DNA of 64,000 bases. Source: Daucus carota subsp. sativus. Lineage: Eukaryota > Streptophyta > Magnoliopsida > Apiales > Apiaceae. The DNA lies in NCBI RefSeq assembly GCF_001625215.2, contig NC_030385.2, positions 42,495,598 through 42,559,597 on the forward strand. The letters are read 5' to 3'. Positions 8,243 to 58,173 of the stretch are shown piece after piece (the stretch's first letter is position 1; the number at the start of each line of letters is the position of its first letter). The notes under the pieces were generated by a model, which saw only the letters and a list, made by a program, of their open reading frames with translations, was not told where the DNA came from and made no database searches. The position numbers were made by a program, and so were the translations under genes.

Positions 8243-8328
8243 TTAAAGCACTAGTGCGTATACCATGGAAGGGACTACTGGGGCAAGGTAGCAGAAGACT
8301 CACCTGACCTCGTAAACTAAAGCTAATA

Positions 8329-8632
8329 CTCCCTCCGTCCCTTTTTATCTGTCCATTTTGGAAAAAAAAACACATACCAAGGAGTAATTGATTGTATGAA
8401 CTTTTTCATTAAATACCTCTAATTAATATCTTGAAAATGGTGGAATACCCCTACTTTATGTCTTGAAAACATGAATTCAACCAAGTTTTAAATAAGTCAA
8501 GCCTTGAAAATTGAAATTATGGAGATATATTTGAAAAACTATCATTAAATTAGTTTTGAAAGTATAAATGGACAGATAAATAGGGACAAATTTTTACTTC
8601 CAAAATAGACAGATAAATAGGGACGGAGGGAG
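8329..8632 (+). mobile_element. Stowaway-like MITE, copy 1 of a 304-bp family
   Basis: Terminal inverted repeats CTCCCTCCGTCCC and GGGACGGAGGGAG, flanked by TA on both sides (8327-8328 and 8633-8634). The element is 304 bp and AT-rich inside. The copy at 10009-10312 is nearly the exact reverse complement and also 304 bp long. Confidence 0.9.
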
Positions 8633-8634
8633 TA

Positions 8635-10008
8635 ACTTTTTTCTAGCCTCACTATCCTGGAAAATTTAAGTGCATTTCAAGAGATGAATTCATTATTTCT
8701 ACGAATGTGAAAGGGAGCTACTGAAGGACCACAACATATAGGTAGGAATAGGACACATATATAAGTTGTCTGAAGAAATTTAAAAGAGAGCTACTGACAA
8801 GTAGTTGCGTCCACAGTCGTTTTTGTGCATGGAGCATCTATGATCACTTCTTTAGCTAGGGAATTTAGTTGCAACATCTTGGATTATGGAACTTCTTTGT
8901 GCCTCCTTTTGGTAGGGGTGTCTGTTCGTCGATAATCCTGTAGCACAGTATGAAATTCTAGTGTCACTGATGATTAGATTTTGTTTAATTGGTTTTACAA
9001 TTGTCACCGCATGCTGATCTATGTTTCATGTTCAATTCATAGGAAACACAAGCCATTTCAATATGTCTGCATTGCTGCATTGCGATTGCAGATATGCTTG
9101 TGCTCTGCAAATACCACATAACAAAAGCAAAAGCAAGTAATTATTATGCTTAATTATAATTGAGTCATCTCTGAGATCAAATCTTGTCATTTTACGAAAC
9201 AGATTTAATTTTTCTGGGGAGCCCAAGTAATGCAACTACATGAACCACATTAATCATACTTTGATCTCGATGCTTATTACGATCTGGATATAGTTAATTC
9301 AGGTAATTAAGTGTTAGCGTAAGCTTAAAAATTCTTAATGCAAGTAAATTTGTTAATTAAGCTGCACATGATGGAAGCTACTCCCTATAGTTCACACTGT
9401 CTAGCTTTTATAAGTTGTAGTGAATTAAGGTAAAGCTGGAAAACGAAAAAGGTTAAAGATTGAGGTGTTTAGTTAAGTTGACTGCAATATCTCGAAACTA
9501 ATCAAAATGATAGTACAATAATAAGCTTGCCACTAATGTGAATGATTATATGTTAATTAAGATGGTCTTTTCCTAATTCTTCGTTTGCGTATCGTGAATG
9601 CGAAGACTAATGGGGATGTTTAAGCAATAATTAATCAACAAGGGACAGAAGCAGAGAGACAGTTAACCTTAATGTAACATTCCCAACAAATGGAGATAGT
9701 AATTCCTATGATCCCATCTTCATCAAGCACAATGCGATGATATATTGTGTGCGACTCCCTTTATGCGGTAGTTGACCTTTTAGACAATATGGCAGGACCA
9801 CCATATACTGGACCTTCCCCACAGGAGACATCTACCCAAGATACCGCGCCTTTGAATTACCTAATCCCTCAATTCGTGTATGGGAATTGAATTTTCCCTC
9901 GATTTTAGAACACACTCGCACCCTGTTATTTTGTTTTCGGTTTTTCTAGCATACTAATAACTAAAATTTATAAAATTAGAGAGATTGATTGGCTTATCCT
10001 CTTTAATA
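8635..10008. other. Intergenic between two inverted MITEs
   Basis: About 1.4 kb with no gene or repeat that I recognise. Confidence 0.45.
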
Positions 10009-10312
10009 CTCCCTCCGTCCCCGTTTATTTGTCCACTTTGGAAGTAAAAATTTGTCCCTATTTATCTGTCCATTTATACTTTCAAAACTAATTTAATGAT
10101 AGTTATTCAAATATATCTCCATAATTTCAATTTTCAAGGCTTGACTTATTTAAAACTTAGTTGAATTCATGTTTTCAAGACATAAAGTAGGGGTATTCCA
10201 CCATTTTCAAGATATTAATTAGAGGTATTTAATGAAAAAGTTCATACAATCAATTATTCCTTGGTATGTGTTTTTTTTTCCAAAATGGACAGATAAAAAG
10301 GGACGGAGGGAG
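10009..10312 (-). mobile_element. Stowaway-like MITE, copy 2 of the 304-bp family
   Basis: Same family and length as 8329-8632 but in the opposite orientation. Ends are CTCCCTCCGTCCC and GGGACGGAGGGAG, with TA on each side (10007-10008 and 10313-10314). Differences from copy 1 are few and are seen mainly near one end, which suggests recent amplification. Confidence 0.9.
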
Positions 10313-10314
10313 TA

Positions 10315-12270
10315 ATAATGATGGACCCCCTACATTTGTAACCACCACATCAATCAAAACTCTTCAAATTCATGAAATTTAGTGCTTGGCATGTTCCATG
10401 AACACACACTAGACAAACCCTTTTGTTTTTATCTTGGATTTTTCTAGTGTCTGCCCATGATCACAACCACTTTTTAGTTAGGCAGGATTCAACACCTACT
10501 AAAATGTTGTTGTTAGTGTGTGCCCATGGCACGAACTAGAAAATCCGTTTGATCCTTCTCCATCAACACATACTAACTATTTTTTCTTTGAAAAGAAAAA
10601 TAGTTTGATAATAGAAATCATACAGTATCTACATACACTGCGCTGTTGAATCCTTCTTTCTTGAATGAACAACTAAATGACTTTTTAAAAGATATGAATA
10701 TGTAATATTGTAATATTCTGACTGTTGCTTGAGCAATCGATTATAAATACATCACTATAAAAATCTTTATCATTAAATCATTTTACGAAAATCCCGCATA
10801 TTTGTAATCCCGACCATCATGAACAACAAAGGAGCCTAAACAAAATTCAAATAAATTAAAAACTTACAGAAGAAAAATAAGGAATGAATTAAGAATAACA
10901 AAGAGAAGAAAAGATTGGGATTTTTCACCTGTCAAAACTGATGAAAACTGCTCACATAGCAGGAGCGGCTACTTAAAAGACATAGAGAATTTTTGAGTTA
11001 CTTATTTTAAAAAAATTTGATTTAACTGGAAAATTTTGAAAGATGAAATTTGATTGATGGAGATTTTTATACATATAAGCAGATATTATTAGTGAGATTA
11101 GAGTCACTAATTTTCAACGTCCGATGATTTTTATTTTTTAGTATGTCATGGATTTATTTTTATTTTTTGATTTTTTGTCTTTAAGTTTCGTATGCTGTAG
11201 AGTGCAAGTATCATTTGACAGGAAATTAATGCACATTTTTATCTACAACGGTACTGAAGTAAATAGAAACGTACCGCATTTCGTGATGATATGCGGTAAA
11301 ATTGGTTTTTGTTTCTAAGATTAGAGAGGCAGTTTAAGTGCGTTTAAAATAGATGTTTATTTATTAAAATAAAAAATGAATTATAAATTAAATAAGTGAT
11401 TAAAATATTGGGGAAAGAAGTAAAACTTTTGAGAGAAAAACTAACATTTGTAACTTCTAAAAAATGCTTCACTACGGATAAAATAATAAAAGCCATTTTT
11501 TTTTTAAAAAAGAAGTACTTTCTCGTGTTGCCAAATACGCGCATTATTCTTAAACTCCTAACCTCCACTTCCTGACAGATGTGTTGCATTTTTTTTCCTT
11601 TAAAGTTTTCAGAAATCATAAAAGTACATGTTTGTTTTAGAACAAATTACTGTATGCTCTCGTGTTTAAGTTCAAAGGCTAAGATGAGTTTAGTCTCGTT
11701 TTTAGCAGTTCTGCTTATAGATTTACTATTATTTATAGGTAATGCATGCACGGCGATTTAATTTCCTAGTTGTTCATACTAAACATACACTCGGAGTCCA
11801 TTCCGACATCGGTTGTATATTAAATCCGATCGTTGTCAACAAAATTTCTCCAAACGAACTATGTATATGCACCAGGAAAAAAAAAAAACTTCAATAACCT
11901 TTAATACCTGACTTGTATAGGGGTATTTTCAGCCAATTAGAAGTGACTTATTAATTCAGCTGCTGTGTGTGTATATATATACGGCAGATTTTGATATACC
12001 GCTGTTTCGATATATTAAATTACTTGTAGCTTCCTTGTTAATACGTCGTCGTCGATCCCCAGCATACATAATTAGGTTACGTAGACATACAAAAGATGAT
12101 TCAAGTCTAAGGTTCTTTCTACTTGAGTTAATATACAATCCTTTACCCAATAGCTTACACATCCAAATTCCAATCCACGTACCTCCTGCAAGGATGCAAA
12201 AAAAATTTATATATACATCGTTCATATTAAAAATTATTAGGAAGAACCTTGCTTTGCTTTAAATATGTCA
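10315..12270. other. Intergenic, no gene recognised
   Basis: AT-rich DNA. Around 10437-10549 two imperfect inverted arms (GGATTTTTCTAGTGTCTGCC and its opposite) may be a small degenerate MITE; a related stretch occurs near 13904. No coding region is seen. Confidence 0.4.
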
Positions 12271-35800: not shown

Positions 35801-37023
35801 GGGAAAATAGATTTTTTTGCCACCCAACTTATTATTTGTTTAGAAACCTACCACTGAATTATAATTTTTTTCTTTTTTGTCACTAGTGTTAGGTTCGGAC
35901 TTTTTTTTGTCACTAACGTTAGGTTCGGATTTGATTATTAACACTATGTTATTTTTTTGGTATTATTAAAATATAATGTTAGTCTGCAATATAATGGCGA
36001 TCTGATATGTGTTTATATATTAGTGTCCTAGGTAGTTTACCTTGGAGGACGAGAGTTGGACACGCGTTTTGAGACTCCAAAAAATTTTAAAAATTATTTT
36101 ATTTTATTTTTTCTGTATAAAATTTAATGTTGGTGTTTTTTTCCTTAAAAAAACGTTGGATTTTTTTTTGTCACTGACGTTATGTTTTGATTTGATTATT
36201 GACAATATGTTATTTTTTAAGCATTATAAAAACATAGTGGTAGTCTGCAATATTATGGTGATATGATATGTGTCTATAACATTATATACAGTCATCTATA
36301 TGTCCCTTAGCTAGTTTACCTTGAAGTATGAGAGTTTAACAGGCATTTTAAGAACCTAAAAAATTTAGTTTTATGAATTATTTTAAGACTTCACAAATAT
36401 ATAGTATCACTTGACTTTATAGTTATTTACCACTACTTGTCACTTATTTTAAGGTTCCCACTTTTTATAAATGTAGTTCCATAAGTTAATTTTGAGATTT
36501 CCTTTCTGACTATAAAAATCCGTACTCTCGTCCTCTAAGATAAACTACCTAGGACACATATGGAGTACTACATATAAAGATATAGACACAGATCACTATT
36601 ATATTGCAGACTACCGAAAAATAAATTTCCGAAAAATATCGTTTAGATGGTCGGGAAATTTAAATAAAGGTCTGATTTTAATTAAATATAATAAAATTTC
36701 CCAAAATACCCCTTCAAAAGTTAACGGTAACGGCAGAAGATAACGGAAAGGGTGCAAAGTGTCTACAGGTTAAAAGTAAGGGGCTGCATAGTGTTTATTC
36801 CAAAACTATTAGGTGCAATGTGCAACATGCTGAAATCAAAAGGGTGCCAAATGCAATTGACTCTAAAAAGAATAACACAATGTTAATAATCAAATCCGAA
36901 CCTAATGTTAGTGACAAAAAAAAATCCGAACCTAACATTAGTGGCAAAAAAGAAAAAAATTATAGTTCAGTGGTAGGTTTCTAAACAAATAATAAGTTGG
37001 GTGACAAAAAAATCTATTTTCCC
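35801..37023. mobile_element. Mutator-like foldback element with 9-bp target duplication
   Basis: The element begins GGGAAAATAGATTTTTTTGC and ends with its inverse TTTTTTTATCTATTTTCCC-like arm (AAAAAAATCTATTTTCCC). The inverted arms are about 150 bp long (35801-35960 against 36870-37023). Both sides carry ATCTATTTA (35792-35800 and 37024-37032), a 9-bp duplication as made by Mutator-like elements. The interior holds at least two diverged copies of a module with GTCTGCAATATAATGG, plus part of it in reverse near 36600. I see no transposase, so it is non-autonomous. It ends 290 bp upstream of the bHLH start. Confidence 0.8.
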
Positions 37024-43106: not shown

Positions 43107-46089
43107 TCAACGGTTAAGAGCAAACGGTTCCAACAAAAACGATTTCAAGAGGTCCTTGATATAGTTTTGAGGGATGCCAAGTCCATCTCCGTGCTGATAA
43201 AAGGTTTGAGCTGTTCGTGCAAGATTTGCATTTGCTGTGCGAAATGGTTCACCGACAGGGTAGCTTGCAAGCAAATCTTTATTAAGAATCTTCCATGTCT
43301 CGTGCACTAAACTATCAACATATTTTCTGGACTCTGCTTCACTTGCTCCAGTATCATTCATGTAACACTGCACTGCCTTCAGACTATCTCCTCGAGCCAA
43401 CTCTTCCTAAGTTGCATGTAAATCTAATCAAAACCAGAACATGAATACGTCTACACATGTATGATTGTGTCATTAAGGTCAGTATACGTACAGATGATGT
43501 TCCAAGATCATTGGTTAGTCGAAGAATCATGGAGGAACACCACATGATACTGGGAAGCTTGTCTATGTAGTCCAATGCCTCCACAGTTATCTTATCCGCA
43601 GTTCGGAAGTAGGCGCAAAACAAAACTATTGGAGCTGCAGATGAAACTGCACCATTCTGCATATATTCCTCCAGTGTTGGCTTGTATCCAGAATAATACC
43701 ATTTTGCTTCTTTGAGAAAAGCTTTACACATATATGTCCACTGCCATAATTCAAGGAAACATTGATCAGGCAGCCTATAGATTGAACAAGGTTAGTTTGA
43801 AAAGTAAATTAAGTCATTTGAAGATACTTGTTTGCTGAAATATGGTATGATGTTGAAGTCTCGTTCTTGCAGTGTCCAGTATCCTATTTGATTTGTGGTA
43901 TTGAACATTGCAAGAAGAACCGTCTTCAAGTTGTTTGGGAGCTTGTCGATTTCTGTAATATCCCACCTGAAATAGTATAATAGAAAGATATGGAAGCTTG
44001 CAAACTACTAAGAGTAATGCTAGGTACATAGAAACAGATACAGAAATATGCACAGAATGACGTAGATTCCACTGTTATTATGATTACACATACCTGTCAA
44101 CATAATCTGTGAAGAGCTCCAGCTCTTCTAATGAGCCATATATATCGTACAAATCATCAATGATTATTAGTAAGCAAATGACTTTGGTTCCCATATCTCG
44201 GAAAGCCTTATATCCTGGATCCGGAACTGTTCCATTGCACCAGAAATAATGTTCTACTAACCTGTCTCGTGCAAAGCTCATCTTGTCCAATCCAGTTTCC
44301 ACCCACCAACTGCAGAGGATATATACATATACTTATAAACACAGAAAACTGGTCACTTGACATGAATATCAGCTCCTGTACGAACCTTGGGGTCAACTTA
44401 AACAGTTATGTAGCGGAACGTAATCCAGGCTGCAGCCCCGACTGAGCTAGGAAAGTCAAGATTTTTTTTAACAAAAATTCAGTTGTTTATGTTTAAAGAT
44501 TAATTGATTTTTTATTGTTACCCCACTAGTTCTATTTATAAGTAAATATTATTATTCAAAAATTGGCCCCGGTCATCTTAATTTCTGATTAACCACTGGT
44601 TCTATAAAACATATAATTTATATACCTTGCTAGTTTGCTGACTTCTTTCTGGTAAACTGATTGGATGATGTTATAGTCTAACTTGGCGAAGTTAAGCAAA
44701 TTAGAGTTGATGTTTTGTTCTTTCTCGTATGCATCAATGTACCATCTAGCCTCCACTCTTGTTAATTTCCAATGCAGAGGCATATCTAAGGCATGATTCA
44801 CTTTTGCTGTCATGTTAAGAGCTATTTTCCCTTGTTCCACAGCATTCTTTAAGCATGCTGTTGAAAAGGCCTTCGCTTCATCAATGATATCTTCACCTTG
44901 GAAACCGTAGAAAGATGCTTCATACAAGCTGAGTAACCCCTTCACATCCTCGCAAAGATTTGCCTTGAAATTACCCGTGTCATCTTTAAACCTTCTGAAC
45001 ACATCTGCGACAAAAAAATGAAGATTAGATTTATATAAATCACTGTTCTGATTTTGAGTTAAATCTATAGATCAACCATATAATTGATCACTTAAAATTG
45101 AAGGTAAGCTGTGACAGACCTTGTGACACAGTATATCCATGCTCTCTGAGCATTCTGAATTGCAGAGCTGTTGTATAAAGATCATCACTCAATGACGCCT
45201 CACTAATATTATTATATATAACATTAATTGCTTGTTTTACATCATTCTGGAATCGGTGGTTCAACCCTAGCCTTTGAACCGTGTCAAGCAACTCGAGCTT
45301 GGCCAATGGGTCATCCGTTTCTGCATGAATTAGACGTTTCACAAGGTCCTTCAACTCGTCCAACTGTCTTGCATATTTCTCTTCCTGCAAAGATTACACA
45401 TGTTACATGAAATTATCATTCACCTAAAGTGGATAAATTGATAAATATGATCCCAGGATAAAGATCGTGATTAATATCCAGAAAAAAAAAAGTATTTTTG
45501 ATGATCTAGCCAAACCCATGCAGCCATGCAGGTAAATATTATACAAGTTCATCATGGTATATCTTATCTATGTTATAGCTAGGGTAAAATCATATTGCTA
45601 GATAATTTATAGCAAGTATATATAAAAGGGTCAGGTCCACAAAAGACGTATGTTGTTGCATATCATACCGTACTTGATAAGTAGAACATAATATTCACAT
45701 ATTAAAATAACCATTTTACCATTCCACACTTATTAAGAACAATACCATATAATGCCCCAACATACGTTTTTCAGAGATCTAAACCCATTTACAAATATGC
45801 AGTGAGAGATGTGTCAAATATTCATGCACATGAGCAACAGAACAAGCATTAGTACAGTATAATCACTGTTTAGTGACTTGACGAAGTTGTAGTCCCAGGA
45901 ACTTGGTGGGTAGTTTGCATTTCTTCTCAAAGCTGCACCGTTCACCTGGTCAATCATCGTATCTGTAGTTTTTATGCATTGAACACGGCCTTCAGTCGCA
46001 AAGGTTCTATTATGATTCCTTGCTGAAGAAACATAACTGCAGGGAAGTGCAGTGACTAGTAAGGTTGAACTCAGATTTTGGAGGGCCAT
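43107..46089 (-). CDS. TPS: Monoterpene synthase TPS-A (TPS-b), intact
   Basis: Plastid enzyme expected to convert geranyl diphosphate to a monoterpene; the product cannot be told from sequence. Seven exons from 46089: 46089-45856, 45384-45120, 45004-44626, 44309-44094, 43966-43828, 43740-43492 and 43406-43107. All GT-AG joins keep frame, giving 593 aa. The N-terminal 50 residues resemble a plastid transit peptide. Motifs: RR(x8)W at 55-65 (typical of TPS-b), RDR at 307-309, DDLYD (DDxxD) at 344-348, WYYSGYKPTLEEY in exon 6, and NDLGTSSEE (NSE/DTE metal site) at 488-496. The seven-exon layout is standard for the family. It is nearly identical to TPS-B next door, so the two are recent tandem duplicates. 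Confidence 0.93.
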
Positions 46090-46734: not shown

Positions 46735-49700
46735 TCAATGGTTAAGAGTAAAGGGTTCCACCAATAACGATTTCAAAAGGTCCTTCATCCAGTTCTGAGG
46801 TTCGCCAAGTCCATCTCCATACTGATAAAAGCTTTGAGTTGTTCGCGCAAGATTTGGATTGGCTGTGAGAAATGGTTCACTGAAAGGATGACTTCCAAGC
46901 AAATCTTCATTTAGAATCTTCCATTTCTCGTGCACTAAACTATCAACATATTTTTTGGACTCTGCTTCACTTGCTCCAGTATCGTTCATGTAACATTGGA
47001 CTGCTTTCAGACTACTTCCTCGTGCCAACTCTTCCTAAGGTACACGCAAATCTAATCAAAACTAGGACATGGATACAATGATATACACATATATGATTGT
47101 GTGAAGGTCAGTGTACTTACAGATGATGTTCCCAGATCATTGGTTAGTCGAAGAATCAAGGAGGAGCATGACATGATACTTGGAAGCTTGTCTACATAAT
47201 CCAACGCCTCCACAGTTATCTTATCTGCAGTTAGGAAGTAAGCACAAAACAAAACCATTGGAGCCGCAGATGAAAATGCACCATTTTCCATATATTCCTC
47301 CAGTGTTGGCTTGTATCCAGAATAATACCATTTCGCTTCTTGGAGAAAAGCTTTACACATATATGTCCACTGCCATGATTCAGGAAAAAATTTGAGGCAG
47401 TCTATTGATTGAACAAAGACAAGTGAAAACTGTAATGAAGTTCTCTAAATACAGTTCATACTTGTTTACTTAAATATGGTATAATGTTAAAGTCTCGTTC
47501 TTGCAGTGTCCAGTATCCTATTTGATTTGTGGTATTGAACATTGCAAGAAGAACCGTCTTCAATTTTTTTGGGAGCTTGTCAATTTCTGTAATATCCCAT
47601 CTGAAATAGTATAATAGAAAGATATGGGAGCTTGCAAAATGCTAAGAGTAATGTTAGGTACACAGAAACAGATAGAGAAATATGCACAAAATGACGTAGA
47701 TTATACATACCTGTCAACATAATCTGTAAAGAGCTCCAGCTCTTCTAATGAGCCATATATATCGTACAAATCATCAATGGTTATTAGTAAGCAAATTACT
47801 TTTGTTCCCATATCTCGGAAAGCCTTATATTCTGGATCCGGAACTGTTCCATTGCACCAGAAATAATGTTCTACTAACCTGTCTCGTGCAAAGCTCATCT
47901 TGTCCAATCCAGTTTCCACCCACCAACTGCAGAGGATATATAAATATACTTACACACAAAAAAAACTGGCCACTTGACATGAATACCAGCTCGTTTACGA
48001 AATTGGGGTTAGTATGAAACAATTATGTAGCGGAATAAGGGAGCCTAACCCAGGCTGCAGCCTCGGCCCTCGACTCAGCTAGGAAAGTCAATGATTTTTT
48101 TTAAAACAAAAAATCAGTTGTTTATGTTTAAAGATTAATAGATTTTTATTGGAGCCCGACTAGTTCTAGTTATAAGTAAATTTAATTATTTTAAAAAGAG
48201 TAGTGCTACAACCACAAAATTGGATACAAAATTTTGTATAAAATGACATGGCAATTGAGTTATGATGTTTTGATTGATGCTATTAATGCATATACAGAGA
48301 TCAATCGAATCAAAACTTAACACATACTCATTTTGTGAATAATTTTGTATCTAATTTTGTTCATGAAACATTTTCCTTTTAATAATTATCCCCGGGTTAT
48401 TTTAATTTCCAATTCACCACTGGTTCTATATAAAACATAAAATTTATATACCTTGCTAGTTTGCTGACTTCTTTCTGGTAAACTGATTGGATGATGTTAT
48501 AGTCTAACTTGGCGAAGTTAAGCAAATTAGAGTTGATGTTTTGTTCTTTCTCGTATGCATCAATGTACCATCTAGCCTCCACCCTTATTAATTTCCAATG
48601 CAAAGGCATATCTAAGGCATGATTCACTTTTGCTCTCATGTTAGGACATATTTTCCCTTGTTGTACAGCATTCTTTAAGCATGCTGTTGAAAAGGCCTTC
48701 GCTTCATCAATGACATCTTCACCTTGGAAACCATAGAAAGATGCTTCATACAAGCTGAGCAACCCCTTCACATCCTCGCAAAGATTTGCCTTAAAATTAC
48801 CTGTGTCATCTTTGAACCTCCCGAACACATCTGCCAAAAAAAAAAAAACAAATACGAGAATAAGGTAAGAATTATACGAATCTGATTTTGAGTGAAATGG
48901 ATAGATCAGTAGCATTGAGTTATTAAAAAAGTAAAGCATGACAGACCTTGTGACACAGTATATCCATGCTCCCTGAGCATTCTGAATTGCAGAGCTGTTG
49001 TATAAAGATCATCACTCAGCCATGCATCATTGATATTATTATATATTACATCAACTGCTTGTTTTACATCATTCTGGAATCGATGGTTCAACCCTAGCCT
49101 TTGAACTGTGTCAAGCAACTCGAGCTTGGCCAACGGGTCATCCGTTTCTGCATGAATGAGACGTTTTACATTGTCCTTCAACTCATCCAACTGTCTTGCA
49201 TATTTCTCTTCCTGCGAAGATTATACAAGTTACATAAAATTATCACCAACTTAATATGATCCCAGAATTGAGATTGAGATTAAAACCCAGAAAAAAGTAT
49301 TTTTAATGATCTAGCCATCCCCATGCAGCCATGCAGGTAGTGATATACAAGTTTATTACACATATCTTATTTATATTATAGCTAGAGTAAAATCATAACG
49401 CTCCATAATTTATATCTGAGTACATATACACCGGAGTCAGTCCACAACACACGTATTTTGCAGCATATCATACCGTACTTAATAAGTAAAACCCTGTATT
49501 CACATATCACAAACAACCATATTAAGAGCGACACTTTATGACCCAACATATACTATTTTTAGTGCTCCAAACCCATTATAAATATATAGAGAGCGGTATA
49601 TATTTTAAATATTCATAACCAGGAGCAACAGAAGAAGCATTAGTACAGTATAATCACTGGTTAGTGACTTGACGAAATCGTAATCCCAGGAACTTGGTGG

Positions 49701-49880
49701 GTAGTTTGCATTTCTTCTCAAAGCTGCACCGCTATCCTGGTTTATAATCGTAGCTCTAGTTTTTATGCGTTGAACAGAGCGTTGAGTAGCAAAGCTTTTG
49801 TTATGATTTCTTTCTAAAGGAACAGAACTGCGGGGAAGTGCAGTAACTAGGAAGGCTGAACTCAGACCTTGGAGAGCCAT
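46735..49880 (-). CDS. TPS: Monoterpene synthase TPS-B (TPS-b), intact
   Basis: Tandem partner of TPS-A with the same predicted role. Seven exons from 49880: 49880-49647, 49211-48947, 48830-48452, 47926-47711, 47600-47462, 47369-47121 and 47034-46735. Every exon has the same length as in TPS-A, giving 593 aa. RR(x8)W, RDR, DDLYD and NDLGTSSEE are all present. Differences from TPS-A are scattered, for example VFGRF for VFRRF, PEYKAF for PGYKAF and NMRAKVN for NMTAKVN. I see no stop, shift or broken splice site. The upstream in-frame extension to 50054 has no transit-peptide character and precedes the conserved MALQ start, so it is excluded. The promoter region 49881-50045 is shared with pseudogene TPS-D. 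Confidence 0.93.
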
Positions 49881-50693
49881 ATCAGTTTTGGCAGAGAATG
49901 GCTTGCAATTATTATGTGTTATGTGATAAGTAGGATTTGCAAGATTTGCAAGATATATAGAATCAGATAGCATTTGTCCTAATTTGACAAACAAATGCTG
50001 ATCACACCTGTCCTGCTTCATAATTTTATCATTGTAAAGTACTTCGGGTACCAAATTTTCATCTATACGTTTAATTAATTAATAAGCTCAGCTAAATTCC
50101 TTCCAACATCAGGATTACCAAATACTAAAATATTACGTAATATTTAATTCAACTTCATCCCTTCACAAGATTCGCTAAAGATGAAGAAGGTATAAAAACT
50201 TTTATTTCTAAACAATAATAGCTTAAATAAATATATTAAAATATTATATTTCTATAAATAATAAATTTTAAAAAATTATATAATCCTGCTCTTGGCACCG
50301 AGCTAATAAGCAGCTCGACTGTACAGGGTCCGATGGGAAGCGAACCGGCTACTAGTAAAAAGAATAACATTTGTTTCTATATTTGCGTGCCCACCAAGTT
50401 TGCCTGTTTAGCTATCTTAAAGTCAAAATCATGTTATAGAATTGGATGACCCAAGTGGTGAGTTTATCCTCTGTTATTTTCGGAAACCTGAATTCGACTC
50501 TGACTCATTTGAAAAGTATTAGAACATATATTGTAAGCCTGTATTGTCAAAATCATGTTTAGATAAATATATAACGCGAGATAAACCGGTCATTTTTTTG
50601 ACGAATGTCCTACACAAGCTTAGGCTTCTAGCAAAGAAAATGCCGCTTCTCTTATTAAACACGACTATTACAAATGTATCGTGGTTCTTGCAC

Positions 50694-50832
50694 TATTGGA
50701 CTTGAATCAACATTGTTGCATTATTGCGTTATTGGACTTGAATCAACGTTGTTGTATTATTGGATTTGAATCGACGTTGTTGTATTATTGGATTTGAATC
50801 AACATTGTTGCATTATTGCATTATTGGACTTG
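50694..50832. repeat. Minisatellite of 28-36 bp units
   Basis: Four full units and part of a fifth of the type TATTGGACTTGAATCAACRT plus TGTTGYATTAT. The related inverted copy near 54880-54925 holds only about one and a half units, so copy number changed after the duplication. Confidence 0.85.
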
Positions 50833-51280
50833 GGCTACATTTTACAAACATCTTCTGTGTTGTATCCGATAATTTCAAGATTGTCAAGCTTTACTACACA
50901 GCTGTGGTCCATTCACATCTATAGTGATCAAACATGCAAAACTCGAAGGTGTAATAATATCGTAAAGGTGTTGATGGAGAAGAATGGCATTTTGATAGAT
51001 CTTGCGCCAAAAGTTTATTATTCGATAATGAACAGGAGCTCTAGAGAAACAACAATAGACAGGTTATGGGTTTTCGACAGGAAGGTGCATGTGAGCAGGG
51101 GCAATCGACCCCTCTTAAATTTTTATTTTTTTAATATTATACATATTTTTAGTTTGTAAAATTGAAATTGACTCCCTTAATTTTTTTTGACCCCTCTTAA
51201 TTTTTCTTATAAAAAAATTGACCTTCTTTAACTTTACGTAGAGTCAGATCCGCCACTGCATGTGAGACAGTGCTGGATAA
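50833..51280. repeat. Left arm of an inverted duplication (partner 54068-54930)
   Basis: Together with the minisatellite, this stretch reappears in reverse complement at 54068-54930. Examples: CAAAAGTTTATTATTCGATAATG at about 51008 and its reverse complement at 54143; ATAGTGATCAAACATGCAAAAC at 50920 and its opposite around 54205/54764. The arms are diverged, and each has a private insertion. Confidence 0.85.
51096..51257. mobile_element. 162-bp insertion with a 9-bp target duplication
   Basis: GCATGTGAG stands on both sides (51087-51095 and 51258-51266), and the inverted copy at 54068-54100 lacks the insert. Ends are CAGGGGCAATCG and, reversed, AGTGGCGGATCTG, so the inverted ends are weak. 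The 9-bp duplication points to a small Mutator-like element. Its CCGCCACTG end is a motif also seen near 4852. Confidence 0.7.
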
Positions 51281-51559
51281 CTATTCAGTGGCACCAGCGA
51301 TAAACAAATGAAAATGATTGAAGGAAGGAACTAGGGAGCTGCTGGACATAGCCATCGTTTGGAAAAGACCAACGTGCATGGAACTGATTTTGTGGTTCTG
51401 TGGTTTTCAGAGGACATATTTCAGTTTCTTTTTAATTTTAACTTGTTTTTACTGGCTGTTGGAATTTTTTTTAGTGTGTATTAGGCCTAAGAGCACCGAG
51501 TCCGTTTTATGCCTCGAGACTCGTGAATCGGATTTGATCAGCTGATTTTTTTGTTCTTA

Positions 51560-51692
51560 TATTGGATGGTTTTGTATATTTGTCATTATTCTTTCTTGCA
51601 ATTAGTATTAAGATATATTCAATATGTTTGGTTCGGTTATATTTTTGCCAGATGGGATTTGTTACTGCTCAATCACAGCACATAGGCAGGAA
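51560..51692. repeat. Duplicated copy of DNA past the DUF604 gene, part 1
   Basis: Reverse complement of about 58060-58165, for example GATGGGATTTGTTACTGCTC and CAATCACAGCACATAGG. It continues after the hAT element at 52505-52640. Open frames here are not genes. Confidence 0.8.
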
Positions 51693-52214
51693 TAGGGATG
51701 GCAACGGGTCGGATCGGGTCGGGTTTCTTGAGATCCAGACCCGATCTATTATATTTCGGGTCGGGTCGGGTTCGGGTCCGGGTCGGAAAAATGAAGATCC
51801 AGATCCGATCCGTCGGATTTTTTCGGGTTTCGGTTCGGGTTCGGGTCCAATTCGGGTATTTAAAAAAATAAAATTAAATACAAATTTAAAATTATATATC
51901 TATAAAAAATGTGATTATGGATTATTTTTTTTAACTTTAGAAATATAAAAAAGGGAATTACAGGCTTCATTTATTACAATAAACACGTGAAACATGTTAA
52001 CTCAATTGTATACAATCATTCAGCTTATCATTTATATTTTATTATTTTTATTGTATTTAGATTTTTTTAATGCACAATAATTGAGAAAAATAAAATATTG
52101 ATGTAATAAATATAAATTCTATATTGCAAATATAAAATTAAATAAAATGTTAATATTCATACTTAATAATTCATAATAATTCAATATAAATACTTTACAT
52201 TTAACATATATGTA

Positions 52215-52271
<57 letters not shown>

Positions 52272-52504
52272 TTGTATCGGGTTTTTATCGGGTTTCGGGT
52301 TTGGATCCGGTTTAAATCGGGTTTCGGGTTTCGGGTCGGATCTCGGTTCGGAATACCTGAGATCCAGATCCAGATCCAAATTTTTTCGGGTCCAAAAATA
52401 AGATCCAGATCCGGATCCAAATCCAAAAAAATCGGGTTCGGGTAGACCCAATCGGGTCGGAACGAGTCGGGTATCCATCGGGGCGGGTAAAACTGCCATC
52501 TCTA
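51693..52504. mobile_element. hAT-type non-autonomous element 1
   Basis: Ends TAGGGATGGCAACGGG and TGCCATCTCTA (reverse TAGAGATGGCA). Flanked by the perfect 8-bp duplication GGCAGGAA (51685-51692 and 52505-52512), the hAT signature. The 812-bp body has sub-terminal arrays of GGGTCGG/TCGGGT in both orientations and a TA microsatellite at about 52215-52266. No transposase was seen. It sits inside duplicated DNA related to 57830-58165. Confidence 0.88.
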
Positions 52505-52640
52505 GGCAGGAAGTGTATTCCAAGACCAAGTTGAAAATAAGCATCCTTGATCAGGGTGAACCAAATATGTCAATATTGTCGAATTATTCAAAATACTGTT
52601 ATTTTATTTTCCATCTCTCCTGTACTATTTTTTTTTATAC
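52505..52640. repeat. Duplicated copy of DNA past the DUF604 gene, part 2
   Basis: Reverse complement of about 57845-57980, including GTGTATTCCAAGACCAAGTT and ATATTGTCGAATTATTC. It immediately follows hAT element 1. Confidence 0.8.
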
Positions 52641-52921
52641 ATTTCTCATTAAAATTTGTGACAATTATTGCACATAGGATTGACAATATATTCAAAAAAG
52701 TATAATTATAAACAAATACGAAGATAGATGTTTTTCACATGAATGCACCTTTTTCTCGTTATTGAAAGGGTCACAGAAATTGACAATTAACACTCCTCCC
52801 CCTTTGATGGAAACAAATAGTAACTATAAATAAATACAAATATATATATATTTTTAATGTGAATATCTTTTTTTTTTTTGAGAGGTTCACAAAATTTGAC
52901 AACTCTGACCAGCACATGTTA

Positions 52922-53286
52922 GAGCAAGTGAGCTAAAAATAGGTGTAGCTATTGCTAATATAGCACTAAAAAATGGTTTTTGGTGCTAAAATAATATCAC
53001 ATCTCCAATGGTTGGTGTTATATCTTGTGCCAAATGAATATATGTGCATTCATGTACTTGAATAGGTTGAGATATAAATTTATTTTTTATTCCTTTCTCT
53101 CCATTTTTTTACTTTTTGATGAGGTGGCAATTATAGCTATTGCTATAGTTTGTGCTAAATATAGCACCAACTATAGCAATATGCTATTTTAGCACAAAGT
53201 TTAGCACACCATTGGAGTTGAAATTTTTTGATTTTGAGCTATAATATAGATATAGCACAAGATATAGCTCACCATTGGACTTGCTC
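52922..53286. mobile_element. PIF/Harbinger-like MITE
   Basis: A 365-bp element with ends GAGCAAGT and ACTTGCTC, flanked by TTA on both sides (52919-52921 and 53287-53289). Internal AATGGTTGG and CCATTGGA repeats match the elements at 7951-8242 and 38700-39053. Confidence 0.75.
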
Positions 53287-53289
53287 TTA

Positions 53290-54067
53290 TGAAATATCAT
53301 CTCAATTTTTTACATCAGGTCTACCAGATTAAACATGGAATATAGTAGCTGGTGATACATATGTCTTTTGACATTTGACCAGTTAAATTGACTATATTTT
53401 AACTGGAATTTATATTTATTATACAATTGAATTTTTCTAAAAAAAGATATCATTGAAAAATAAATCTAGCTTATTTTAACATGTAACTTTCTATTTCTTA
53501 AAATAATAAATAATTATTTTTTAATAATTGGTTAAAAGTTGGTCAATTTTACTCTTCAAAAATCAAAAGGTGAGACGGAAGGAGTACAAACTTTTTATCA
53601 CATTTTGTTTGAAGTTCCTAAATTATTATCAAATCTGAACAAATTAGAGGCCAAAAGACTATTTGGTAACCCTATCGGCTAACAGGCGATAAACTTGTAC
53701 CGCAGACCGCAGTGTGGGCAAAATATAATCAAAATCCGGTTCTTTATATTTATATCAGTAACATGATTAATATCAGAAAAGTAAGTTTTTTTTTATTACT
53801 AAGAATTCGTAACATGATTATTATCATAAAAAGTAAGTTTTTTGCTATCACCGAGAATTCGTAGAAAATTTCACATTTTCGTCAATATCATTGAGTGTAA
53901 TTATTCTACTAGCTCGGAAATGATTACTATCAGAAAAGAAAGTTAATTTTTTGTTGTACCGAGTTTTGCCCTACAACTTTTCATTAGCAGCTTCATAATG
54001 AAAACGAAACTAAAGTTCTATCCAGGACTAAACAAACTAAAATTAAAACGAAACTAAAGTTCTATCC
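53290..54067. other. Intergenic with a small tandem repeat
   Basis: No gene. AAAACGAAACTAAAGTTCTA and nine further bases occur twice (54001-54029 and 54045-54073, period 44). AGTAAGTTTTTT motifs repeat near 53780-53945. Confidence 0.55.
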
Positions 54068-54930
54068 AGGACTGTCTCACATGCACCTTCCTGTCGAAAA
54101 CCCACAACCTGTCTATTGTTGTTTCTCTGGATCTCTGTCCATTATCGAATAATAAACTTTTGGCCCAAGATCTTTCAATATTTCATAATTCGGCCCTATC
54201 CAGTTTTGCATGTTTGATTAGGGGTGAGCATTCGGTCGGTTCGGTCCAAAACCGGACCGAACCGAATAGACCGAGAACCGAAGTTTAGATTTTTTTCGGA
54301 CCGAACCGGACCGAAGTTTTATAATGGACCGAACCGGACCGAACCGAAATAATTCGGTTCGGTCCGGTCCGGACCGAAAGAACCGAAATTATTTTAAAAA
54401 TAAAAAAATATTATATTTTTTAACTAAAATTCATGATTTATTTTAAAATTTTCATATTAATTAATCACCCTCAATTCATTAAAGATACATATAATTAAAT
54501 TTACAAACTAGATATTATAATTATAACATATAAGATACATATATAATATAAATATGAATTAAAATTATATATATTTTGGACAATTCGGTCTATTCGGTCC
54601 GGACCGAAATAATTTTTTACGGACCGGACCGGACCGAACTTTATTTCGGTCTATTCGGTCCGGACCGAATGGACCGAATTTTCAGAAAATTAGGACCGAA
54701 CCGAACCGAATTTACACGGTTCGGTCCGGTTTTTCGGTTCCGGTTCGGTTTTGCTCACCCCTATGTTTGATCACTATATCTGTGAATGGATTACAGTTGT
54801 GTAGTAAAGCTTGACATTCTTGAAATAATCGGATACAAGATAGAATATGTTTGTAAAATGTAGCCAAGTCCAATCAAATAATGCAACAGCGTTGATTCAA
54901 GTCCAATAATGCAACAACCACGACATTCGT
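54068..54930. repeat. Right arm of an inverted duplication (partner 50694-51280)
   Basis: Reverse complement of the left arm, interrupted by hAT element 2 at 54219-54763. At the matching point the left arm reads straight through GCATGTTTGATCACT, so it preserves the empty site. Confidence 0.85.
54219..54763. mobile_element. hAT-type non-autonomous element 2
   Basis: Perfect inverted ends TAGGGGTGAGCA and TGCTCACCCCTA, flanked by the 8-bp duplication TGTTTGAT (54211-54218 and 54764-54771). The body is 545 bp with sub-terminal arrays of CGGTCCGGACCGAA and AT-rich centre DNA. The paralogous site near 50920-50945 lacks the element, which fixes its ends exactly. No coding capacity. Confidence 0.93.
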
Positions 54931-55231
54931 AAGAAAGTGACTGGTTTGTCTAGCAGACTAGCAAGAAAAACATAACTCATTCAAGAGAAAACATGGTGTT
55001 ATAAAACATTATTATAAGTTACAAAACATATATAAATGCAAATAGTTTAGCTGTAATTAGTGGATTTTAAGGTTATATATTTATCTAAACATGATTTAAT
55101 TGACTTAAGTTAGCTAAACATGTAAAATTGGTGGGCTGGTGAATATAGAAACAACAGTTAGTCTCTTTTTAACAACTACCTTATGACCTGTGCGGGATTA
55201 TTTTAAAATTTATTATTTATGAGAATATAAT

Positions 55232-55648
55232 GGGGCTGTTTAGCTTAACTTAAAAGAAGTGACTTATTGCTTAAAGTAAAGAATCGGATTATAAGTGATA
55301 AGTGAACTAAATTTATAAGTTACTAAAAGTTTTTGGATAACTTCACTTATAAATCAATCAAGTGTTTGGTAATTTAAATTTATATATAAATTAAAAAAAA
55401 ATCAAATTATAAAAATACAAGAAACGTTATTAATAAATAAAATTTCCTACATATTAAAAATTTCAAAACTTCATAAAATTGCAATTCAGTGAAAAAAGCT
55501 CAAAAAAAGATAGTATTTCTAACTTCCAGCTTCTGGCTTCAAAAAAGCTGAAAAGCACTTCTAATTTCAGCGTCCAAACACACGCAGATAAGCTGAAGTC
55601 AGCTTTTGTTTAAAAGAAGTGGGAAGCAGGTGTTCCCAAACACCCACA
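55232..55648. mobile_element. MITE-like element, hAT-type ends possible
   Basis: Starts GGGGCTGTTTAGC with TTAACTTAAAAGAAGTG close behind; ends AAAAGAAGTGGGAAGCAGG and CCAAACACCC, an inverted arrangement. Target duplication unclear. It resembles 12271-12631 and the units upstream of XTH. Confidence 0.5.
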
Positions 55649-55986
55649 ATATCTTTGATATATTTATTTGGATTACTGTTATTTAGATGTAATTTTTTAT
55701 TTATATTAACATTTGATTCTTCACACTCTTGGAAGGGTCAAGGTTGAATTAAATTTTGATACTATGATACTTGGTACTTTTGGTTTTAAGTTGAAAGGTG
55801 GTTTCGTTTATTATTAAAAAGTACCGGTAATAATTTGGCACCAGGTTATACCGTGATAAAATTATGAACCATGTGTGAGCAATTTGTTTGTCAAATTATG
55901 ACAAATGCCATCCGACTATACATGTTTTGCAAATGTACATATCATGGAATACATAATAATTCCAAGCATTTCGCTGCAAAACCGAT

Positions 55987-57071
55987 ATGGCTCTCCAATG
56001 TCTGAGTTCAACCTTGCTAGTTACTGCACTTCCCCGCAGTTCTGTTCCTTTAGAAAGACATCATAACAAAAGCTTTGCTACTCAACGCTCTGTTCAATGC
56101 ATAAAAACTAGAGCTACGATAATAAACCAGGATAGCGGTGCAGCTTTGAGAAGAAATGCAAACTACCCACCAAGTTCTTGGGATTACAATTTCGTCAAGT
56201 CACTAACCAGTGATTATACTGTATTAATGCTTCTTCTTCTGTTGCTCCTGGTTATAATGAATATTTTCTTTTTCTTTTTGAAACTCTGGTTATGAATATT
56301 TAATCTCTACATTTTTTTTTGCTAAGTCTCTCACTACATATTTATAATGGGATTGGATCTCTAAAAATAATATGTTCGATCACAGAGTACCGCGTTTAAT
56401 ATGGTTGTTTTTGATACGTGAATACCCAGTTTTACTTATTAAGCACGGTATGATATGCCGCCATATATGTCTTTGGACACCTTTTGTTTATATACTCGGA
56501 TATAAATTATGGAGCATTATGATTTTACTCTAGCTATAATATAAATAAGATATACCATAATAAACTTGTATATCACTTACCTGCATGGCTGCATGGGGAT
56601 GGCTAGATCATTAAAAATAGTTTTAGGTGAATGATAATTTAATGTAACATGTGTAATCTTCGCAGGAAGAAAGATATGCAAGACAGTTGGATGAGTTGAA
56701 GGACGATGTAAAACGTCTCATTCATGCAGAAACGGATGACCCGTTGGCCAAGCTCAAGTTGCTTGACACAGTTCAAAGGCTAGGGTTGAACTACCGATTC
56801 CAGAATGATGTAAAACAAGCAGTTGCTGTCATATATAACGATATCAGTGATGAATCGTTGAGTGATGACCTTTATACAACAGCTCTGCAATTCAGAATGC
56901 TCAGGGAGCTAGCATGGATATACCGTGTCACAAGGTCTGTCATGCTTTACTTTCTTAATAACTCAATGATACTGATCTATCCATGTAACTCAAAATCAGA
57001 TTCATATAATTCTTACCTTATTCTCGTTTTTTTTTTTTGACAGACGTGTTCGATCGGGAGGTTCAAAGATG
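55987..57071 (+). pseudogene. TPS-C: truncated terpene synthase copy
   Basis: Exon 1 (55987-56220) is intact, with MALQ start and RR(x8)W. Intron 1 and exon 2 (from 56666) follow. Exon 2 has a 4-bp insertion near its end (CAGGGAG-CTAG-CATGG), shifting the frame and losing the HGYTVSQ end. Intron 2 is kept, and about the first 35 bases of exon 3 remain, carrying a second 4-bp insertion (GTTC-GATC-GGGAGG). The copy stops abruptly at about 57071, where it meets TPS-D in opposite orientation. No catalytic domain, so no enzyme. The promoter side (from about 55870) is homologous to those of TPS-B and TPS-D. Confidence 0.9.
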
Positions 57072-57593
57072 AATCCAATTCTTTAGAACATAAAATTTAA
57101 GTACGTTGCTAGTTTGCTGACTTCTTTCTGCTGAACTGCTTGGATGATGTTAAAGTCCAACTTGGCGAACTTTAGCAAATTAGGGTTCATGTTCTGTTCT
57201 TTTTCGTATACATTAATGTACCATCTAGCCTCTACCCTTGGTAATGTCCAGCGCAAAGGCATATCCAAGGCATTTTTCAGAGATCCCAACCCATTATAAA
57301 TATGTCGAGAGAGATATTTTAAATATTCATTAGCAGCAGCAACAGAATAGCATTAGTACAGTATAATCACTGGTTAGTGACTTGACGAAATTGTAATCCC
57401 AGGAACTTGGTGGGTAATTTGCATTTCTTCTCAAAGCTGCACCGCTATCCTGGTCAATGATCGTAGCTGTAGTTTTTATGCATTGAACAGAGCGTTCAGT
57501 AGCAAAGCTTTTGTTATGATTTCTTCCAGAAGGAACAGAACTGCGGGGAAGTGCAGTAACTAGTAAGGTTGAACTCAGACCTTTGAGAGCCAT
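57072..57593 (-). pseudogene. TPS-D: internally deleted terpene synthase copy
   Basis: Read from 57593: exon 1 is intact (57593-57360; about 70 of 78 residues as in TPS-C). The first part of intron 1 then jumps at about 57270 into the middle of exon 3 (ALDMPLRWTLPRVEARWYIN to the exon end and a bit of intron 3). Exon 2, intron 2 and half of exon 3 are missing, and everything downstream is absent. It abuts TPS-C tail to tail. The promoter region 57594-57740 closely matches that of TPS-B. Confidence 0.9.
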
Positions 57594-57829
57594 ATCAGTT
57601 TTGCAGCGAAATGTTTGAAATTATTATGTGTTCTGTGATATGAGCGATTTGCAAGATATATAGAATCAGATAGCATTTGTCCTAATTTGACAAACAAACT
57701 GCTCACACCTGCTTCATAATTTTATCATTGTAACCAAATTCTCTCCATATCATTTATTAGCAAAGAAAAAGCCGCTTCTCTTATATACTTGTTTGAACAT
57801 ATTAGCAACTTTGTTGCGAACCATTGTAG

Positions 57830-58165
57830 CAAATTTGATGAGAAACGTGTCAAAAATAGTATTGAAGAGATGGAAAATAAAATAAGTACTTTTAATGATT
57901 CGACAATATTAACATATTTCATTCACCCTGATCGAAGATGCTTATTTTCAACTTGGTCTTGGAATACACTTCCTGCCTAGAATTCGATTTTTGCAGCTTC
58001 AGCTGAGACGAACCTTTACCCCAGATATATGCATGCTCATTTGCCAAAAGATTGATTATTACCCCTATGTGCTGTGATTGAGCAGAGTAACAAATCCCAT
58101 CTAGCAAAAATATAACCGAACCAAACACATTAAATATGTCTAATACTAATTGCAAGAAAGAATAA
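57830..58165. repeat. Duplicated DNA between TPS-D and DUF604 gene
   Basis: Reverse complement of 51560-51692 plus 52505-52640. It contains about 90 bp (58000-58070 region) absent from the other copy. It reaches to within about ten bases of the DUF604 stop codon, so the duplication may have caught the 3' UTR. Confidence 0.8.
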
Positions 58166-58173
58166 TGGCTTGA

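Follow-up and report, generated by a model that had tools for sequence, protein, structure and literature searches.

A hairpin-capable, tail-to-tail pair of truncated terpene synthase genes near DcTPS33 in carrot

The array and its broken pair

The stretch of DNA analysed here (the window) covers 64,000 nucleotides of the carrot genome (C5:42495598-42559597), and the whole genome was searched alongside it (441,086,747 bases in 11 contigs). Two intact genes of the TPS-b group lie in its second half, both on the minus strand. Gene A (43107..46089) has seven exons and, spliced at conserved junctions, an open frame of 593 aa. It is DcTPS58, with a span of 2,983 bp here and at 37087498-37090480 of chr5 in the old assembly (Table 3 of Keilwagen 2017; PMC5684173). 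Gene B (46735..49880; exon 1 at 49880-49647, exon 2 from 49211), also intact with seven exons and 593 aa, is DcTPS33: by the single offset that links A to DcTPS58, the published stop of DcTPS33 lands exactly on the B stop at 46735 (PMC5684173), and the DcTPS33 end coordinate in Muchlinski 2020 lands exactly on the B ATG at 49880 (PMC7305226). The Pfam domains Terpene_synth and Terpene_synth_C are both found in B, which among solved structures best matches sesquisabinene, santalene and limonene synthases. The RRX8W and DDxxD motifs are those typical of TPS-b enzymes. A third relative, paralogue C, lies on the minus strand of contig 1 (30755683-30758544) and encodes 592 aa after splicing. It may be DcTPS32, but the name is a guess, because the span is 2,862 bp as opposed to 2,748 bp in the published table. 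Within exon 3, the part of A and B that corresponds to the broken copy R described below (44600-44800 and 48431-48626) shows 97.9% identity between the two genes, as against 85.9% in exon 1, and an exchange between these two intact genes is possible.

Beyond B, two truncated terpene synthase genes face each other. Copy L occupies 55849-57072 on the plus strand and copy R occupies 57732-57073 on the minus strand, so that they meet tail to tail at 57072/57073. A first-pass annotation of this DNA had described a tail-to-tail pair of broken terpene synthase genes, which is confirmed now that the junction and the lesions in both copies have been mapped; it was also right that the copies converge, the exact point being 57072/57073 instead of about 57071. 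At this junction (57072..57073), exon 3 of L is joined to intron 3 of R, and comparison with B and C indicates by eye an overlap of at most 1-2 bases. Both copies lack their 3' halves.

Copy L opens with a decayed promoter or 5' flank (55849-55986), the outer part of the left arm, which reads CTATACATG at the TATA position (55916-55924). The 234-bp exon 1 (55987-56220) forms the core of the left arm; its frame is open, and it is 96.6% identical to B and 94.0% to R. As in TPS-b genes generally, it presumably encodes the transit peptide and the RRX8W region. The remainder (56221-57072) runs from intron 1 through exon 2 (56666-56934) and intron 2 to the first 29 bases of exon 3 (57044-57072). L is disrupted by a 4-bp insertion in exon 2, by another 4-bp insertion in exon 3, and by the cut at 57072. 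Each insertion (within 56890-56930 and 57036-57075) consists of a triplet repeated around one base, AGC-T-AGC and TCG-A-TCG respectively, a form that resembles repair or excision footprints. Upstream of L, at 54230-54750, there is a cluster of CGGACCGAACCG-type short repeats.

Copy R has a promoter or 5' flank (57594-57732) that makes up the outer part of the right arm and contains an intact TATA-like box, GATATATAG on the plus strand at 57655-57663. Its exon 1 (57593-57360), the core of the right arm, is again 234 bp long with an open frame, and its splice donor is the same as in B; the two 234-bp first exons of the earlier description are thus real, and open in both copies. The R exon encodes an N-terminus starting MALKGLSSTLL, where that of B starts MALQGLSSAFL. 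About 80 bases of intron 1 are retained before an internal deletion join at 57274-57280, which connects intron 1 to exon 3 and where about 0.9 kb is missing relative to B: everything from intron 1 into exon 3 is gone. The rest of R (57073-57279) comprises the 3' part of exon 3 (57279-57105), whose splice donor has changed from AG/GT to AC/GT, and a remnant of intron 3 (57104-57073) that is cut at 57073.

Inverted arms and predicted fold

The arms of the inverted repeat, 55854-56266 and 57727-57321, are 89.1% identical over 414 columns (self-BLAST E ~3e-153) and are separated by a spacer of 1,054 nt. When slightly wider arms are aligned end to end, 372 of 424 columns are identical; ungapped, the match consists of 294 nt at 93% and 86 nt at 85%, and the longest perfect runs measure 45, 37, 34, 27 and 23 nt. 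Each arm contains about 138 bp of promoter or 5' flank, exon 1 and some intron 1, in agreement with the earlier description of roughly 0.4-kb arms, with promoter and exon 1, around a spacer of about 1 kb. The pair exceeds chance, yet inverted pairs as large as this one are no rarity in the genome: with thresholds of at least 300 bp, at least 85% identity and a distance within 3 kb, one of 20 random 10-kb stretches (200 kb) held a comparable pair. A second pair in the 64-kb window passes the same thresholds and consists of two MITE-like elements (8324-8634 and 10007-10317), which are 97% identical, lie in opposite orientation 1.37 kb apart and end in CTCCCTCCGTCCC. They are a better inverted repeat than the L/R arms, and presumably Stowaway-like. 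The special point of the L/R pair, judged from sequence, is that its arms are genic and resemble what are apparently working neighbours.

The left-arm core matches nine places in the genome, and the five at 85% identity or above are L, R, A, B and C. An origin of the arms from a DNA transposon with long terminal inverted repeats is not supported, since they are not dispersed in the genome. Between 50000 and 60000, no Rfam match to a known microRNA reached the gathering score. Elsewhere in the window, an element at 35801-37023 has 158-bp terminal inverted repeats (94% identical) and a 9-bp flanking repeat, ATCTATTTA; by the usual rules we assume it to be Mutator-like.

That a read-through transcript would fold into a hairpin had been proposed from the layout, and computed folds of 55849-57733 agree: the minimum free energy is -865 kcal/mol for the plus strand and -869 kcal/mol for the minus strand, far below the -462 +/- 5 kcal/mol of the plus strand with the right arm shuffled (12 folds). 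In the predicted plus-strand fold, 385 of 422 left-arm bases (~91%) are paired with the right arm; in the minus-strand fold, 380 of 413 right-arm bases are paired with the left arm. Even with the L introns removed, 349 of 372 bases are predicted to stay paired.

Small RNAs from such a stem would find different numbers of perfect matches in A, B and C. The two arms contain 402 and 393 windows of 21 nt, and matches were counted on genomic sequence, not on mRNA. Counting gene and flanks together, 152 distinct arm 21-mers are present in B (96 from the L arm, 105 from the R arm), 137 in C and 30 in A. Both arms have 66 21-mers in common, of which 49 occur in B, 38 in C and 7 in A. Exon 1 of B matches the arms at 94-97%, that of A at 86-88%. 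The stem had been said to match exon 1 of both A and B; this applies to B but only weakly to A, which C surpasses. By these counts, B and C are plausible predicted targets of arm-derived small RNAs, and A is a poor one.

L also forms an inverted pair with B, larger than the one it forms with R. The stretch of B from 5' flank and exon 1 to the start of exon 3 (48806-50082, minus strand) aligns with 55807-57072 on the opposite strand at 81.5% over 1,343 columns, gaps included, and the homology goes on upstream in patches to 51095 and 54076. Identity is highest in exon 1 (96.6%), intron 2 with the exon 3 start (94.8%) and exon 2 (94.0%), and lower in intron 1 (83.2%) and the 5' flank (76.1%). L is thus antisense to 1.27 kb of B, and an RNA running from R through L would be antisense to exons 1 and 2 of B, reaching beyond exon 1.

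Descent and promoter state

The two copies do not have the same closest relative. Trees were built with 100 bootstraps under HKY+G and include three more distant copies from the same genome; in the exon 1 alignment used for trees and identities, the windows taken from L and from the three other genes A, B and C begin 2 bases too late. The exon 1 tree groups L with B (bootstrap 89) and gives R no firm place (51), the exon 2 tree groups L with B weakly (36), and the exon-3 remnant tree groups R with C at 100. This speaks against the fold-back duplication of one gene as the whole story. In the arm region, the commonest pattern among 27 informative columns separates L and B from R, C and A (7 columns), with the others in conflict.

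A shared outer flank complicates this picture. The sequence at 57784-58167 (minus strand), 3' of a DUF604 gene, is repeated in inverted orientation at 51584-52704, in collinear pieces of 83% and 93% identity. The distal piece has one other copy among the genome matches listed, and the proximal piece has weaker copies elsewhere. The trees split the arms, yet the common outer flanks indicate an inverted duplication. Their history is therefore mixed and may include a subsequent exchange between exon 1 of L and that of B. If a simple inversion had broken two genes internally, their two 3' halves should lie between B and L; in 51-54 kb, no such half of A, B or C is among the matches listed, so under this scenario the halves must have been deleted. 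On a genome-wide scale, a PF01397 search gave at least 149 matches, which fall into 77 places and 27 adjacent pairs less than 20 kb apart; three of these are on opposite strands, B/L among them. This count says little on the L/R pair, because R escapes the search.

In exon 1, L and R are 94.0% identical, R and B 94.0%, R and C 94.8%, and L and B 96.6%; in the flank, L and R diverge by 14.4% and R and C by 6.0%. The L/R arms are therefore no more alike than paralogues are, which gives no indication of selection for a duplex. Compared with the paralogues, the arms have no homogenisation beyond a few shared bases of the 5' leader, where two substitutions common to L and R set both apart from the other copies. 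L differs from B at 8 of 234 positions in exon 1 (3.4%) but at 23 of 132 in the flank (17.4%; Fisher p 8e-6), and the contrast is also seen when exon 1 is represented by synonymous sites alone (p 0.016). Such closeness in exon 1 fits either an exchange between L and B or constraint.

The two putative promoters can be told apart by substitutions that occur in a single copy among L, R, B and C. Over about 132 comparable positions of the proximal flank (the first 20 alignment columns being dropped), L has 15 unique substitutions, R has 1, B has 3 and C has 2. In exon 1 the counts are 2, 3, 3 and 8 in the same order, and in the compared part of intron 1 they are 10, 9, 6 and 4. The decay of L is thus visible in the flank and absent from exon 1. 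With flank changes polarised by C and B, the difference between R (1) and L (15) has a binomial p of 0.0005. TATATA is kept in R, B and C, and is lost in L, which reads CTATACATG. Since the flank has decayed in L and is kept in R, transcription across the junction is likelier to come from the putative R promoter than from L, and the original proposal that it could start on either side looks unlikely for the L side. As the R flank is conserved in the manner of working genes, R may retain some role.

Possible roles and known parallels

Weighing this evidence, we incline slightly towards seeing the pair as an accidental and at most weakly active source of hairpins, not as a selected silencing device. 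It would be chiefly a remnant of gene birth and death within the DcTPS58/DcTPS33 monoterpene synthase array. In this model, an inverted duplication or an inversion within an older array would have set a B-like L against a C-like R, with losses following later. The resulting DNA could encode a long hairpin, and any RNA across the junction would most likely start at R and run leftwards, placing the sense exon 1 of R before the antisense of L. The imperfect duplex of about 0.4 kb predicted by the fold could then be cut by Dicer-like enzymes, with B and C, and hardly A, as targets. The lesions, the trees, the flank decay in L, the fact that the arms are not kept alike and the occurrence of similar inverted pairs elsewhere in the genome together tip the balance a little way towards such a relic. 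Counting against it are the first exons, which are open in both broken copies and have few unique changes (two in L, three in R), the closeness of L to B in exon 1 compared with the flank, the weak grouping of L with B in exon 2, the conserved R flank, and a published DcTPS33 model that appears to use R. If the pair is neither a silencer nor a distal exon, it shows neatly how turnover in an array can give rise to hairpin-capable DNA that has no function. The weights given here and below are shares in the role of main reading, and the distal first exon and silencing in trans, both discussed below, could hold together.

A less probable alternative, though one to be taken seriously, is that the R promoter and exon 1 serve as a live distal first exon of DcTPS33, spliced over about 8.1 kb in frame to exon 2 of B. 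L and the junction would then be inside the first intron, and the pre-mRNA would contain R in sense, L in antisense and B in sense. In the annotation concerned, a transcript intron evidence (tie) of 1 means read support for every intron. Keilwagen 2017 lists DcTPS33 at 37091126-37102038 (10.9 kb) with a tie of 1, among 65 TPS models stated to be free of obvious pseudogenes (PMC5684173). By the constant offset, the model that stops exactly on the B stop starts at window position 57647, 54 bp from the R ATG and 7.8 kb beyond that of B (PMC5684173). In R, the frame, the splice donor, the TATA-like box and the flank are all preserved, the last with its single unique substitution, and no other TPS exon 1 was found nearby on that strand. 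The simplest reading of the coordinates is that the published model joins R exon 1 to B exon 2 and skips B exon 1, which would put a transcript across 57072. Extending over 46735-57647, the model may be chimeric, or it may record a genuine distal first exon. Against this reading stands the 54-bp mismatch, although an (AT)33 run at 52206-52270 may vary in length between the two assemblies. Support for the model may also be a mapping artefact: R and B differ at 14 positions of exon 1, but nowhere in its final 32 nt, the nearest difference falling just outside them. Split reads that are anchored over a short stretch could therefore be moved from the B1-B2 junction to R1-B2, and the introns were derived from TopHat2 mapping (PMC5684173). 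Furthermore, Muchlinski 2020 has DcTPS33 end at the ATG of B itself (PMC7305226), and although R has changed more slowly in flank and exon 1 (5/366) than in the exon-3 remnant (7/192), the difference falls short of significance (p 0.12). Should R be a distal first exon, then the long DcTPS33 model is right, the first exon of B is the alternative one, and the locus becomes a compact test of the effect of an intronic antisense relic on its host gene.

One form of this arrangement, which is also a form of silencing in trans, would be self-regulation. With the R start working, the intronic antisense L would pair either with its own first exon (414 columns) or with exons 1 and 2 of B (at most 1.27 kb), so that splicing and dicing compete and the small RNAs also reach C. 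We consider this a long shot.

It is doubtful, although likelier than such self-regulation, that the pair is a natural hairpin locus whose read-through RNA yields siRNAs that silence B and C in trans. The predicted fold and the 66 21-mers common to the arms, 49 of them in B and 38 in C, speak for it, and a very similar rice pseudogene pair does yield small RNAs (PMC2708354). DcTPS33 is also one of 11 TPS-b genes that Muchlinski 2020 left untested, whether for previous characterisation, low constitutive expression or failed full-length amplification, a reason stated for the group jointly and not for DcTPS33 alone; the same source places it among the genes whose expression peaks in a yellow cultivar (PMC7305226). 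Its status within this group is compatible with silencing, yet is no evidence of it. The promoter flank of L has decayed, however, the arms lack homogenisation outside the leader, A (DcTPS58) carries only 7 of the 66 21-mers that pair between the arms, and in the rice case illustrated by Guo et al. 2009 the parent gene is without detected small RNAs (PMC2708354). Among the papers listed from the open-licence PMC literature, in which DcTPS33 is named by two papers, we recognised no report of small RNAs from terpene synthase inverted repeats.

An assembly error that joins sequences not adjacent in the plant is very improbable: similar genes in arrays are difficult to assemble correctly, and if R is indeed a distal exon, a difference of about 54 bp from the older assembly lies somewhere in 49880-57593, but the window contains no N, the outer flanks common to L and R fit one genuine rearrangement, and arms that differ by about 11% are no palindrome artefact.

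Whichever way the pair is viewed, inverted pseudogenes laid out so that they can form hairpins are already known from other plants, and silencing is a candidate function here. The closest kind are the inverted pseudogene pairs of rice, likewise adjacent paralogous pseudogenes on opposite strands, for which Guo et al. 2009 used a distance within 2 kb, a stem above 100 bp and a loop below 2 kb (PMC2708354). The carrot pair falls inside these limits, with a stem of 414 columns at 89%, a loop of 1,054 nt and two broken copies. The two rice stems are shorter, one of 185 nt at 83% around a 1,283-nt loop and the other of 154-155 nt at 96% (PMC2708354). The carrot stem includes both promoter flank and exon 1, and an intact parent gene lies roughly 6 kb from it; small RNAs have been mapped to the rice pairs (PMC2708354), whereas the carrot pair is known from sequence alone. 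Were it transcribed, the pair would be a natural RNAi source within the gene family behind carrot monoterpenes.

At Lgc1 of rice, the silencing agent is a read-through RNA. Here too, family members (GluB4/GluB5) lie tail to tail and the family is silenced post-transcriptionally, but Lgc1 arose through mutation breeding and behaves as a single dominant locus, whereas both carrot copies are truncated (PMC10647759). The CHS1-3-4 cluster at the soybean I locus is likewise an inverted repeat of enzyme genes, with potential siRNAs against paralogues elsewhere; it differs from the carrot pair in spanning 27 kb, in having measured siRNAs and in showing a phenotype (PMC3804491). In wild soybean, a tail-to-tail inverted repeat of the beta-conglycinin alpha-subunit gene goes with loss of the product (Tsubokura 2012, cited in PMC9561314). 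Perfect 21-nt identity between arms and target genes would be expected of a hairpin silencing locus of the CHS I locus or Lgc1 type, and the carrot arms have it with their predicted targets. Finally, Arabidopsis PAI1-PAI4 is an inverted gene pair with unlinked paralogues. It is known mainly for the DNA methylation of these paralogues, and its copies are near-identical, unlike the carrot arms.
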